From Rhizobium sp. NXC24 (lineage in GTDB: Bacteria; Pseudomonadota; Alphaproteobacteria; Rhizobiales; Rhizobiaceae): DNA of 64,000 nt. Position numbers and translations under genes: made by a program. The stretch lies in the NCBI RefSeq assembly GCF_002944315.1, contig NZ_CP024314.1, positions 620,001 through 684,000 of the forward strand, given 5' to 3'. The notes beneath the pieces were generated by a model. That model saw nothing but the letters and a program-made list of their open reading frames with translations. It was not told the origin of the DNA and did not search any database. How positions within the stretch are numbered: position 1 is the first letter of the stretch; every line of letters starts with the position of its first letter. Below are positions 53,449 through 58,982 of the stretch, one piece after another.

Positions 53449-54249
53449 TTATGGCCAAAGCTCGTAGAAGTGCTGGACCGGCCCATGACCGGTGCCGACG
53501 GTGAGCGTTTGGGCCGCCGCAACCGCGCCCGCAAGATAATGCTTGGCGGTGGCAACAGCTTCCGTCAGTGTCGAACCCTTTGCAATCTCCGCCGCCAAGG
53601 CGCTGGACAGCGTGCAGCCGGTTCCATGCGTATTCTTGGTTGGCATGCGACCGGCTTCGAACCAGGTCAGCCCCTCCGGGCTTGCGAGAACATCAGGGCT
53701 TTCATTGCCGGCAAGATGCCCGCCCTTGACCAGAACGGCCAGCGGGCCGAGCTTTGCTAAGCTTTCTGCCTGCCGCGCCATCGTCTCGCGATTTTCGGCA
53801 ACGGGTTCGTGCAGAAGCGCCGCCGCTTCCGGCAGATTGGGCGTCAGCAGCGTGGCCAGGGGAAGAAGCTGGTTGGTCAGGACGTCGACAGCATCCGCGG
53901 CAAGCAGCGCTGCACCGCCCTTGGCGATCATGACGGGGTCCAGCACGATCGGCACGCCTCGATGGGGAGCGAGCGCATCGGCAACGGCTTCGGCGATTGC
54001 CGCATTGGCAATCATGCCGATCTTGACGGCATCGACGCGTATATCGGCAAAGATCGCCTTGATCTGATCGGCGACGAACTGCGGAGGAACGGGGTGAACG
54101 CCGGAAACGCCTTGCGTGTTCTGGGCCGTCAACGCGGTCAGCGCCGCCATGCCGTAGATGCCGCGTGCCGAAAATGTCTTCAGGTCGGCTTGAATGCCGG
54201 CGCCGCCGGAGGGGTCGGAGCCGGCGATGGAGAGGACGTTTCGGATCAT
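53449..54249 (-). CDS. thiD: Hydroxymethylpyrimidine/phosphomethylpyrimidine kinase
   Basis: The 266-aa ribokinase-fold kinase is of canonical ThiD length. It has LSIAGSDPSGGAGIQADLKTFSARGIYGMAALTALTAQNTQGV, VLDPVMIAKGGAALL, and TKNTHGTGCTLSSALAAEIAKG with the catalytic Asp/Gly anion-hole region. It phosphorylates HMP and HMP-P for thiamine synthesis or salvage. The ATG at 54249 overlaps the end of a deleted thiM remnant, and the message is led by a TPP riboswitch. Expression should thus fall when thiamine diphosphate is plentiful. Confidence 0.95.
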   Translation of the reverse strand: MIRNVLSIAGSDPSGGAGIQADLKTFSARGIYGMAALTALTAQNTQGVSGVHPVPPQFVADQIKAIFADIRVDAVKIGMIANAAIAEAVADALAPHRGVPIVLDPVMIAKGGAALLAADAVDVLTNQLLPLATLLTPNLPEAAALLHEPVAENRETMARQAESLAKLGPLAVLVKGGHLAGNESPDVLASPEGLTWFEAGRMPTKNTHGTGCTLSSALAAEIAKGSTLTEAVATAKHYLAGAVAAAQTLTVGTGHGPVQHFYELWP

Positions 54250-54419
54250 GGGCGTGCCTTTCTGATCCAGCCGATAGACAACGCACCGGAGATTGCGGCG
54301 AATTCGCCGACCTCCGTTTCGGCAAACGCCGTCGCGACCAAGTTGGTGATGCATAGCACCAGTGGAGGGTTTGTCCGCATGGCCGTCAGCAGCGCGCCGG
54401 GAGTGGTTTTATCTTGCAT
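54246..54419 (-). pseudogene. thiM: Internally deleted thiM (hydroxyethylthiazole kinase) remnant
   Basis: The 57-codon frame starts MQDKTTPGALLTAMRTNPPLVLCITN, a proper ThiM N-terminus. It then jumps to FAETEVGEFAAISGALSI, which normally lies about 30 residues further on, and ends at once. More than 200 residues of the kinase, including the ATP site, are missing. The reading frame is still open and its stop overlaps the thiD start (four bases). It may now serve only to couple translation from the riboswitch leader to thiD. Confidence 0.75.
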
Positions 54420-54486
54420 ATCGCCCCTTTCGGGCGGGGCGAGACGCGAAGGGGACAACGACAAGAGCACGCCGAGACCCCGAGCG

Positions 54487-54563
54487 ACTCCCTCCGCCAG
54501 CATTATCTGGTTCAGGTTCAAAGGGTGCTTCTCAGCCCATCACGCGACGGGCGCCCCTGTCTC
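54487..54563 (-). ncRNA. TPP riboswitch (thi element)
   Basis: On the minus strand the conserved thi-box core is present. It shows GGGGCGCCC, then GGGCTGAGAAG, CACCCTTTGAACCTGA, and CCAGATAATGCTGGCGGAGGGA. These elements form the P2/P3 pyrimidine-sensing helix and the P4/P5 pyrophosphate-sensing helix. It lies about 70 bases before the thiM remnant and thiD. Binding of thiamine diphosphate should reduce expression of the downstream gene. Confidence 0.95.
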
Positions 54564-54653
54564 TCATCACCGTCTTTTTCGCAGAGAAAGACCGCCCTGT
54601 CACCAGCAAATCGCAGTATCGAGATGACCGAGCTTCCGCAGCGTTAAATGTCT

Positions 54654-56132: not shown

Positions 56133-56552
56133 GGTGCTGCCTTGAGTTTGAATTCAGAAGGGCAATCGAATTGCCTGGAACGGTGAACCGCTTGGCGCTT
56201 TCCCGATTATGACGAACGGCCGCGTGAGATTACGACACGTGCAGCGAATTATTTTTGCGCCATTGATTGTCTGAGCAACGCGCGCCTGCAATTCTTGCCG
56301 GTTGCTCACCGGCAAGAATGCTAATGGGCTGACAAAGGTCAACCCTAAAGATGTTTCGGTTGGCCTGGTCCGGAGAGAGAATTTGAAGTGACAGAATGGG
56401 CCGCCTTCAGACCCATGCGCTACTTGCATGGGTGCAGTGAAGCCTTGGCGCTGCAATAACCGAGGGTGCCGTATTATATACCTCTCATCGAAGCAAAGGG
56501 GAGCGCCACGGACGGCAGCTCGGCTTCGAATGCCCGAAGAAAGGGGATCATC
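56133..56552. promoter_or_regulatory. Divergent intergenic region between efflux MFS and DUF1127 gene, with two strong palindromes
   Basis: No gene is supported here. At 56291-56319 ATTCTTGCCGGT and ACCGGCAAGAAT form a perfect 12-base inverted repeat with a five-base spacer. At 56405-56442 CTTCA-G-ACCCATGC and GCATGGGT-GCAG-TGAAG form a second, interrupted one. The first is nearer the MFS gene and could be a repressor site; the second lies 110 bases before the DUF1127 ATG. T-runs are absent, so simple termination is unlikely. Confidence 0.45.
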
Positions 56553-56699
56553 ATGAACGTAGCACGCTCTTTCAACAACTGGCGCAAGTATCGTCAAACG
56601 GTCGCCGAACTGGGCCGTATGTCCACGCGCGAACTGGATGACCTCGGTATCGGCCGCGGCGACATCCGCAACATCGCTCGCGGTGCGGTTGCTCGCTAA
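56553..56699 (+). CDS. DUF1127 small protein (CcaF1-like)
   Basis: The 48-aa basic protein matches DUF1127: VARSFNNWRKYRQTVAELGRMSTRELDDLGIGRGDIRNIARGA. The RBS AGAAAGGGG precedes the ATG at 56553. In Rhodobacter the DUF1127 protein CcaF1 is encoded just before the CcsR small RNAs, binds RNA and affects their maturation. Here the same order recurs, with four CCUCCUCCC hairpins 200 bases downstream. DUF1127 proteins also act in phosphate and stress responses in Agrobacterium. Confidence 0.9.
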   Translation: MNVARSFNNWRKYRQTVAELGRMSTRELDDLGIGRGDIRNIARGAVAR

Positions 56700-56733
56700 C
56701 GGCTCATAAACGCCATAACTTCGACTTTTCGTC

Positions 56734-56769
56734 AGCGCCTGCTTCCTCCCGAGCGGGCGCTTTTGTTTT
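56734..56769 (+). terminator. Rho-independent terminator-like hairpin after DUF1127
   Basis: AGCGCC and GGCGCT enclose a 16-base loop, and TTTTGTTTTG follows, giving a usable U-tract. It sits 35 bases after the DUF1127 stop. It implies either partial read-through into the RNA array or a separate promoter for the array. Confidence 0.65.
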
Positions 56770-56906
56770 GCGCACGCTGTCGGCGGTTTCCCGCATTTTC
56801 AATGTAAGTCGATGCTAATGGAGCATCCCGCTTTTCGCACAACGCATGCCTGCCCTGCAAAGAAATGCCTATGAACTGAGCAAATCTGCGATATGATCTT
56901 GGTTAT

Positions 56907-56938
56907 CGAAGCGATGCACCTCCTCCCGCATCCCTTCG
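56907..56938 (+). ncRNA. CcsR/cuckoo-type small RNA hairpin 1
   Basis: CGAAGCGATGC pairs with GCATCCCTTCG (one C-C mismatch) around a loop containing CCTCCTCCC (56919-56927). The loop is an anti-Shine-Dalgarno sequence, the hallmark of the alphaproteobacterial CcsR/cuckoo RNA family. A TATGAT hexamer lies at 56892-56897, a possible -10 box. Confidence 0.75.
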
Positions 56939-56942
56939 TGAT

Positions 56943-56977
56943 GTAGGCGCCCTTATCCTCCTCCCAAGGTCGTCTGC
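56943..56977 (+). ncRNA. CcsR/cuckoo-type small RNA hairpin 2
   Basis: GTAGGCGCCCTT pairs with AAGGTCGTCTGC through 11 pairs including G-U, with one mismatch at the same kind of position as hairpin 1. The loop carries CCTCCTCCC at 56957-56965. It follows hairpin 1 by four bases. Confidence 0.72.
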
Positions 56978-56979
56978 GG

Positions 56980-57012
56980 GAACAGTAGCACTCCTCCTCC
57001 CAGCTACTGTTC
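56980..57012 (+). ncRNA. CcsR/cuckoo-type small RNA hairpin 3
   Basis: GAACAGTAGC and GCTACTGTTC form a perfect ten-base stem. The 13-base loop holds CCTCCTCCC at 56993-57001. Stem sequence differs fully from hairpins 1, 2 and 4 while the loop is constant, which argues for selection on structure and loop. Confidence 0.8.
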
Positions 57013-57023
57013 GGTTCTTTTCG

Positions 57024-57057
57024 AAAGCCTGCCGCACCTCCTCCCGCGGCAGGCTTT
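57024..57057 (+). ncRNA. CcsR/cuckoo-type small RNA hairpin 4, also terminator
   Basis: AAAGCCTGCCGC and GCGGCAGGCTTT make a perfect 12-base stem around ACCTCCTCCC (motif 57037-57045). TT then C follow, giving a five-T run that starts inside the stem. It is the last and most stable of the four and probably terminates the transcript. Confidence 0.82.
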
Positions 57058-57347
57058 TTCGTTTGGAGCTTCGGCAACAGCAGGGAGAGTTGATCGATTC
57101 TCGATGTTGTCATGAGCTCAATGAGCTTTTCGCCGTAGAGGGGCCGCGCCTGCGCTTGCCGGATGACCCATTCGTGCGGAAAATATCGAGCAATCGTTGG
57201 TGCCGCCATCTGCGTCCCATCGGCAAGTCAGCTTCGCTCCATCTTATTTGTCCTAATGTTCCGTGCCCGAAATCATCCTGCGGGCCTCGTGCAGATCGCG
57301 GCGCTTGACGCGTTTCGATCTCAGGACTGTGAGAGGAATGTTTCCGC

Positions 57348-58982
57348 ATGCTGAAGACCTTTGACGACTACGCCCCCGGCCTTGCCTCGAACGGCAAAAT
57401 GGCTGAGACCGCAGGCGCGCCGTTAAAGCCGTCCGGCAAGGACAAGGATGCGCTTCTCACCTGCCTGATTTCCGGTGGGGACGAGAGATTGGAGTGCGAC
57501 GCTGCAACCGGTCTCAACATGTATGGTTACGGGCCATCGCCCCGACCGCAGGATCTGGCCTTCGGCTCCTCGACGGCATCGACCATTTCCGCACCGGCTT
57601 TCGCGGCGGTCGGCGCTTATTATGCTGATCTTTTGCGGGAGATGGAAACGCGGCCTGCGGCCGACATCTACGCGCGGGAGATCGCGCGGATGCGGACGAA
57701 ACTGCTGCATCTGCTTGGCCTCGATCAAGGCTCAGGGCCTTCGCGGGTGGATGCCGTCATGGCGACGTCAGGCACCGATATCCATCTTTTCGCTGCGGAG
57801 CTGCTGGCGCGCCAGGACGATCGAACCTTGATGACCATCACGCTGATGGGCAACGAGACCGGGAGCGGGGTGATGACCGCGGCAGCCGGGCGCCACTTCA
57901 TGAGCCGCGTCAGCAGTAATAGGCCCGTCGCCAAGGGTGAGGAACTAAGCCCGGGACATGCCACGCGAAATACGACGGTCGCGGTGCGCAATCCGGATGG
58001 CACGTTGCGGAGCGAAGAAGAGATAGAATTGGAATTGAGGGGGTTGATCGAGCTTGCCCGCGCGGCTGAACTCAGATGCCTTTTGGTCGTCACGGATGTT
58101 TCCAAGACCAGCCTGCTGGCGCCAGGCCTCGAAACGGTCTTTCGCCTGAAAGCGCGCTTCGGCGCCATGCTCGATATCATGATCGACGCCTGCCAGTTTC
58201 GCGTCTCCGGGGCAACGATCCGTGCCTATCTGGCCCATGATTTCCTTGTGGCCGTCACCGGCTCCAAATTCCTGGCCGGTCCGATTTTCAGCGGGGCGCT
58301 GCTGTGTCCGCCTCGGATGTCGGATCGCTTGAAACAGCGGCCTTTGTCTCCGGCTTTTGCCGATTATTGCGCGAAAGCGGATTGGCCGGAAGGCTGGGTG
58401 GCCCGGGACGCGTTGCCAGATCACGCCAATTTCGGCCTCTTGCTGCGATGGAAGGCGGCGCTGTTGGAACTGGAGCGCTTCGTTGGCATGCCTGAGCAAA
58501 AGGTGATTTCGGTGCTGAACGCTTTTGCAGAGGCGGTCGGAGAGCGGCTGAAGCACGATAGGGCCTTCGAACTGCTCGATAGCCGACCGATAGACCGGAA
58601 GAGCCTGTGCGGCGACTCGCACGCCCCGGGCTGGGATGAAATACCTTCGATCTTCTCATTCTATCTGCGCAATCCCCATCAGGACGGCATCCTGACGGCG
58701 ACGGAGATGGCCGCGGTATACAAGAACCTTGCCGTTGAGCAGAACGGCCTTATACCGGTGCGTCTCGGTCAGCCCGTTCGCTGCGCCGATTTCGGCGATA
58801 TGCCCGCCAGTGCCTTGAGGATATGCCTGAGTGCGCCGTTGATCGTGCGGGCTTGTGAGAGTGCCGATGCGCTTGATGAGCTCATCTCACAGGCAATGAC
58901 GGTCCTAGATCGAACGGCTGACATGGCCGCGCAATTGGCATCCCAGCCGAGCATGGCCCGCACGTCAGGCGTGCAAGCCTAG
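57348..58982 (+). CDS. PLP-dependent (fold type I) protein of unknown specificity
   Basis: This 544-aa protein has aminotransferase-like landmarks: VMATSGTDIHLFAA (cofactor phosphate loop region), Asp280 in MIDACQFR, and Lys307 in VTGSKFLAGPIFSGALL as the Schiff-base lysine. The GSKFLAGP site and the IYAREIARMRTKLLHLLGL segment set it apart from the SelA-like enzyme in this window. It has no signal peptide. The RBS GAGAGGA lies about 12 bases before the ATG at 57348. I cannot assign a reaction; decarboxylase-like or transferase chemistry is possible. The neighbours give no pathway clue. Confidence 0.6.
   Translation: MLKTFDDYAPGLASNGKMAETAGAPLKPSGKDKDALLTCLISGGDERLECDAATGLNMYGYGPSPRPQDLAFGSSTASTISAPAFAAVGAYYADLLREMETRPAADIYAREIARMRTKLLHLLGLDQGSGPSRVDAVMATSGTDIHLFAAELLARQDDRTLMTITLMGNETGSGVMTAAAGRHFMSRVSSNRPVAKGEELSPGHATRNTTVAVRNPDGTLRSEEEIELELRGLIELARAAELRCLLVVTDVSKTSLLAPGLETVFRLKARFGAMLDIMIDACQFRVSGATIRAYLAHDFLVAVTGSKFLAGPIFSGALLCPPRMSDRLKQRPLSPAFADYCAKADWPEGWVARDALPDHANFGLLLRWKAALLELERFVGMPEQKVISVLNAFAEAVGERLKHDRAFELLDSRPIDRKSLCGDSHAPGWDEIPSIFSFYLRNPHQDGILTATEMAAVYKNLAVEQNGLIPVRLGQPVRCADFGDMPASALRICLSAPLIVRACESADALDELISQAMTVLDRTADMAAQLASQPSMARTSGVQA

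Follow-up and report, generated by a model that had tools for sequence, protein, structure and literature searches.

The locus analysed here raises the question of how a gene for a DUF1127 small protein and the anti-Shine-Dalgarno (aSD) RNA hairpins behind it are wired together. In the window, i.e. the whole 64-kb stretch of DNA that was analysed, the gene is located directly upstream of the hairpins on the same (+) strand, across a gap of about 200 nt. The first-pass annotation saw in this a copy of the CcaF1-CcsR1-4 system of Rhodobacter, in which the protein and the RNAs share one transcript. We consider another answer reasonably probable, namely that the locus comprises two neighbouring transcription units, both predicted to be activated by LsrB, with an RNA that would silence mRNAs by covering their Shine-Dalgarno sites.

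The DUF1127 gene and the four-hairpin RNA

The Pfam search confidently identified the DUF1127 gene upstream of the hairpins (Table 1), as claimed in the first-pass annotation; its product is tiny and arginine-rich. No clear RpoH signature was seen upstream of position 56553 upon inspection by eye. The genome contains six DUF1127 genes and four copies of the ar14 RNA. DUF1127 proteins have been reported to bind RNA in Rhodobacter (PMC10253847), and a DUF1127 protein to bind PhoR in Agrobacterium (PMC12501420).

Table 1. Features of the DUF1127-RNA locus (positions are those of the window)
Feature	Position	Strand	Basis
VtlR/LsrB-like box before DUF1127 gene, TGCATGGGTGCAGTG	56425..56439	+	2 mismatches to published 15-mer
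-10-like TTATAT, putative DUF1127 promoter	56474..56479	+	conserved A.TATAT column block, 30-locus alignment
DUF1127 small-protein gene, 48 aa	56553..56699	+	PF06568, E 6.2e-17
Intrinsic-terminator-like hairpin with T-rich tail, behind DUF1127 gene	56734..56770	+	11 pairs; shuffle z -4.16
Weaker VtlR/LsrB-like box before RNA, CGCATGCCTGCCCTG	56843..56857	+	4 mismatches to 15-mer
-10-like TATGAT, putative RNA promoter	56892..56897	+	conserved block, 30-locus alignment
Predicted four-hairpin sRNA, about 159 nt	56904..57062	+	ends transferred from SmelA099, 160 nt
Hairpin 1, CCUCCUCCC loop	56907..56938	+	fold; shuffle z -4.97; outside Rfam match
Rfam RF02344 (ar14, NfeR1 family) match	56939..57061	+	102.5 bits; gathering score 58.8
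Hairpin 2, CCUCCUCCC loop	56943..56977	+	fold; covariation alignment; comparison with three-hairpin copies
Hairpin 3, CCUCCUCCC loop	56980..57012	+	fold; shuffle z -2.11; covariation alignment
Hairpin 4, CCUCCUCCC loop, and terminator with T tail	57023..57058	+	fold; shuffle z -5.89; covariation alignment

The 9-mer CCTCCTCCC occurs four times in the window, always on the + strand (56919, 56957, 56993 and 57037), against 0.53 occurrences expected per window and a maximum of three in 100 shuffles. The fold of 56904-57062 (-63.7 kcal/mol) comprises four separate hairpins with the motif in every loop, so that the annotated succession of four hairpins with variable stems and one and the same aSD loop (56907-57058) stands, the shuffles never having reached four motifs. 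Hairpin 2 is no better than shuffles if cut too short (z +0.60); with its full arms (56943-56977) it forms 7+4 bp around a mismatch, as judged from the fold only, and in a longer fold (56730-57062) other pairing displaces it while the remaining three hairpins stay. An alignment of 27 loci revealed compensatory changes in 18 of the 40 predicted pairs, each of these having at least one sequence in which both bases differ and still pair. The alignment comprised 19 of the 30 aligned loci from the genus, the other 11 being left out, and 8 four-hairpin loci from the family sample described below.

The ar14/cuckoo superfamily is characterized by hairpins in tandem whose stems vary and whose loops contain CCUCCUCCC; the window RNA has all these features. 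In rhizobia, members of this family influence both symbiosis and stress, and they frequently adjoin DUF1127 genes. The kinship with the cuckoo RNAs of Rhizobiales, noted in the first-pass annotation, is corroborated both by the match to RF02344 above its gathering score and by the SmelA099-like four-hairpin form. The Rfam match covers only hairpins 2-4, leaving hairpin 1 outside, which has the practical consequence that the three-hairpin model misses the first hairpin of a four-hairpin member. Comparison by eye with two three-hairpin copies (L012 and L013) revealed that hairpins 1, 3 and 4 of the window RNA correspond to ar14 hairpins 1-3; hairpin 2 is therefore probably an extra module relative to the three-hairpin ar14.

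Four-hairpin aSD RNAs are already in print, the form represented by SmelA099 having been described in 2011; SmelA099 (four hairpins) and SmelA075 (three hairpins) exhibit CCUCCUCCC loops and variable stems, as does the window RNA (PMC3927594). SmelA099 is given as a detected RNA of 160 nt (pSymA 1328175-1328334; PMC2873474), and in the S. meliloti record we found a four-hairpin array at these coordinates, in which the first CTCCTCC follows the listed 5' end at a distance of 16 nt, and the same VtlR/LsrB-type box 41 nt before the nominal start. The DUF1127 hallmark was not found on the SmelA099 strand in the 1.8 kb examined, whereas the window has such a gene. Since this S. meliloti homologue is listed as a single 160-nt RNA, the four modules of the window probably belong to one RNA with a length of about 159 nt. 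Four separately processed RNAs are less likely for the same reason, though SmelA075 has been reported to have shorter forms (PMC2873474). The 544-aa ORF that adjoins the RNA on its other side (57348-58982, +) has no Pfam match at E 0.001.

NfeR1/ar14 resembles the window RNA in its aSD loops, its Rfam model (RF02344) and an LsrB-type box upstream, but has three hairpins in 123 nt instead of four. The three aSD motifs of NfeR1 have been reported to act redundantly and to silence ntrB at the translation start (PMC10746234). Because the window RNA has the same loops, mRNA silencing is by analogy its likely action: the redundant CCUCCUCCC loops would pair with the Shine-Dalgarno regions of presumed targets and block initiation of translation.

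A terminator and a promoter-like block between the gene and the RNA

The first-pass annotation had also placed a terminator-like hairpin between the protein gene and the RNAs, and such a hairpin, with 11 pairs and a T-rich tail, is indeed present. A terminator scan returned one site of this kind against a shuffle mean of 1.6, which is not significant by itself, and support for the terminator therefore comes from conservation: the stem and the T tail, with a variable loop, are kept in 30/30 related loci. These 30 loci were chosen as the best BLAST matches to the window, hence their conservation is partly built in. Four motifs in a row occur in each of them; there is a fifth in L033, and in L020 an additional one on the opposite strand, at another place within the 3.6 kb of this locus. 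The terminator hairpin was also considered as a fifth aSD module and rejected, as the loop CTTCCTCCCGAG of the window becomes CTTTCTTCAG, CTTTCTCCAG and others in the relatives, while the stem is kept.

Apart from the terminator stem, only a block of ~70 nt before the RNA is conserved in the spacer, the rest of which varies in sequence and length. This block contains the short box GCAT-N3-TG-N3-T, published in PMC7486931, in 30/30 relatives, at 41-43 nt before the RNA, and the TATGAT element; the earlier hint that the terminator changes promoter use thus gains substance from 30 loci. No good -35 element was seen before the RNA, and a generic sigma-70 scan gave nothing on the + strand; its single hit, on the minus strand, compares with 0.7 in shuffles. 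In the window the box CGCATGCCTGCCCTG lies 41 nt before the nominal RNA start.

The same short box is located 5' of the DUF1127 gene in 30/30 relatives, between -120 and -127 relative to the ATG, so that it accompanies both putative promoters in 30/30 loci, although with its 7 fixed bases it is a weak pattern, common by chance. The published 15-mer of VtlR, CAATGCAGCCATGCA (PMC12595884), occurs with at most 2 mismatches at 37 places in the genome, versus 3 for the reversed control. Among the 37 places are these three: the box TGCATGGGTGCAGTG upstream of the window DUF1127 gene, and one site 42 nt ahead of each of two further ar14 copies. The weaker CGCATGCCTGCCCTG site is not among the 37, but its spacing from the window RNA is the same as that of the strong sites of those two copies. 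The genome encodes an LsrB orthologue (645 bits to 9HH1, the deposited A. tumefaciens LsrB data; PMC11975290), whose gene adjoins two ar15 RNAs.

In the arrangement that we favour, the first unit would comprise the DUF1127 gene with its own promoter and intrinsic terminator, and the second unit the ~159-nt SmelA099-like RNA with its own promoter and with the last hairpin as the terminator. With a VtlR/LsrB-type box at either putative promoter, the LsrB of this genome probably activates the two units, and the protein and the RNA would be tied by shared regulation, not by co-transcription. Precedents exist for both halves. NfeR1 is reported to be LsrB-activated (PMC10746234). Three DUF1127 genes of Brucella under VtlR/LsrB control are, like the window gene, small and preceded by a VtlR-type box (PMC12595884), and Atu1667 of A. 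tumefaciens encodes an orthologous small protein under VtlR/LsrB (PMC7486931); in the accounts available from these two sources a cuckoo RNA behind the gene is not described, whereas the window gene has one. The LsrB regulon varies, since in one study LsrB was dispensable for AbcR expression in S. meliloti (PMC7486931). A DUF1127 gene of S. meliloti has been reported to be attenuated by a uORF (PMC12218461). Elsewhere in the same genome (L011, G000:C1:1790300-1793300) an ar14 copy is placed before two DUF1127 genes rather than behind them; it carries TGCATATGAAGCAT, which fits the TGCA-N6-GCAT pattern reported for NfeR1.

Two proposed wirings across the family

In the family sample of 81 genomes ar14 was found in 78 and DUF1127 in 77. 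Among the matches listed, 71 of 150 ar14 rows have a DUF1127 gene on the same strand no more than 1 kb upstream, and the remaining rows have it only downstream (24), antiparallel (1) or not at all (54). Merging gave 121 places, one of them without any array, and 152 arrays of at least 2 modules among the matches listed. Classified by how far the nominal RNA start lies from the DUF1127 stop codon, 42 of these arrays were tight (≤15 nt), 7 were middle and 7 were set back (>80 nt), the window and one congener being among the last; 70 lacked an upstream DUF1127 gene and 26 were follow-on arrays. A site with at most 4 mismatches, 25-80 nt before the RNA, was identified in 0/42 tight, 0/7 middle, 7/7 set-back, 26/70 DUF1127-less and 0/26 follow-on arrays among the matches listed, while the reversed control gave 1, 0, 0, 1 and 0, respectively (1/42 tight, 0/7 set back). 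Six of the 7 set-back arrays among the matches listed have four hairpins and one has five, and the terminator-like hairpin passes the scan rule in 4/7. In L120 five modules were counted, with a distance of 13 nt between two of them; the four modules counted in each of L129 and L150, neither of which has a site, appear to be miscounts, and both arrays were kept in the classes.

Upstream of the DUF1127 gene itself, a site with at most 3 mismatches in either orientation occurs in 30/42 tight loci, while the one-orientation reversed control gave 0/42, and on this ground the operon form, too, looks LsrB-linked via its single promoter. In the set-back loci such a site was found in 2/7, and the short box, by eye, in 4/7. 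For the split form, the case for boxes at the two promoters thus appears strong in the genus and thinner beyond it.

A second sample, obtained by a pattern scan of named genomes, comprised 80 loci among the matches listed, 15 of which had no array of at least 3 stem-loops and stayed outside the class counts; it yielded 74 arrays of that size. Among the matches listed, the site precedes the RNA in 0/15 tight, 2/6 set-back, 0/1 middle, 15/42 scored DUF1127-less and 1/9 follow-on arrays, and the reversed control gave none. Among the set-back arrays without a site, inspection by eye showed a fit to the short box in L200 and L244 and none in L197 (Rubellimicrobium) or L216 (Cognatiyoonia). In the Falsirhodobacter and Tabrizicola records, arrays with 10 (L222) and 9 (L235) counted aSD hairpins begin at the DUF1127 stop codon.

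These data suggest, with about even confidence on our part, that there are two wirings which both keep the partners in the LsrB regulon: an operon form whose RNA starts at the stop codon of the DUF1127 gene, and a split form, present in Rhizobiaceae and having four-hairpin RNAs, in which a terminator together with a second LsrB box takes the place of co-transcription. If so, the split form would allow the level of the RNA to be controlled separately from that of a protein which possibly binds it, and it would provide a natural test: if the protein and the RNA act together, joint control should outlast co-transcription via the shared regulator. Four-hairpin aSD RNAs, the control of NfeR1 by LsrB, that of DUF1127 genes by VtlR, and the neighbourhood of DUF1127 genes and CcsR-like RNAs are known already; the split wiring would be a plausible architectural twist on these families. 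It was not found in the literature searched, outside of which lies a key paper (Reinkensmeier and Giegerich 2015). The CIN1 locus of that work, as cited in PMC10253847, also places a short DUF1127 gene beside CcsR-like RNAs in alphaproteobacteria, and set-back loci with promoters of their own may already be described there.

Alternative explanations

The established case of such a neighbourhood is CcaF1-CcsR1-4 of Rhodobacter sphaeroides, where a DUF1127 gene precedes four homologous small RNAs, as in the window, and where, according to PMC10253847 and PMC8625941, an RpoHI/HII promoter drives the ccaF1 co-transcript, whose 3' UTR is cleaved by RNase E to release CcsR1-4. Applied to the window, a stress-induced transcript from the DUF1127 promoter would read through the hairpin at 56734, RNase E would separate the mRNA from the sRNA(s), and the DUF1127 protein would aid maturation. 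Gene order and strand agree with this, and in the 42 of 152 arrays (among the matches listed) that start within 15 nt of the DUF1127 stop codon co-transcription would be hard to avoid. However, in the window a terminator with a T tail and a second promoter-like block, both conserved in the 30 relatives, separate the gene from the RNA, and four-hairpin RNAs without DUF1127 upstream carry the site in 4/6 arrays (the other two being L129 and L150), as does SmelA099. Thus, the gene order and the four aSD-loop hairpins of the proposed copy hold, its single co-transcript finds no support at the sequence level, and we regard processing of this type at the window locus as rather unlikely.

Two separate units could also exist with the RNA promoter under another activator or sigma factor in place of LsrB. 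The box before the RNA is weak, with its 4 mismatches, the conserved block is longer than the box, SmelA075 is reported to rise strongly after a shift to 40 C (PMC2873474), and NtrC to act on the NfeR1 promoter as well (PMC10746234). The box nevertheless occupies the position of the strong sites at two other ar14 copies and is kept in 30/30 relatives, which makes a different regulator improbable in our opinion. It is hardly credible that the conserved repeat is accounted for by coding on the minus strand, where an ORF of 136 aa (56799-57209) spans the hairpins. A frame is open across the four motifs in 30/30 relatives; on the other hand, these frames differ widely in length (62-148 codons, any of three frames being allowed), the window ORF has no Pfam match, the hairpin pairs covary and T tails follow the + strand hairpins. 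The open frame is probably a by-product of the stop-free aSD repeat. Our preference accordingly stays with two LsrB-activated units.

Relatives, plasmids and neighbouring features

A match to the locus was found in 80/80 genomes searched within the genus, and among the matches listed 48/80 genomes (the source genome included) have a row that spans the query from about position 10-27 to at least 660. In other Rhizobium genomes (G128:C2, G128:C4, G123:C2, G123:C4, G131:C24 and G091:C1) there are additional DUF1127-RNA pairs whose spacing is similar and whose spacers have diverged, as if the whole unit had been duplicated. The search of 56890-57070 against 50,697 phage records gave no match. The window sits on a 2.38-Mb contig; in the plasmid set 571 records match and 125 cover at least 80%, the best named one being from Rhizobium sp. 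CB3060 (99.9% over 721 bases). On a Ti plasmid (L289, pTiAg57 138799-141106) a DUF1127 gene and a four-hairpin RNA are located between an exonuclease gene and dinB; in this A. fabrum pTi copy the box has TA instead of TG.

Elsewhere in the window, a TPP riboswitch (RF00059) was identified at 54472-54568 (-), ahead of a thiD-like frame; between the two, a short frame resembles only the start of thiM (53449-54521, -, for the region of these frames).
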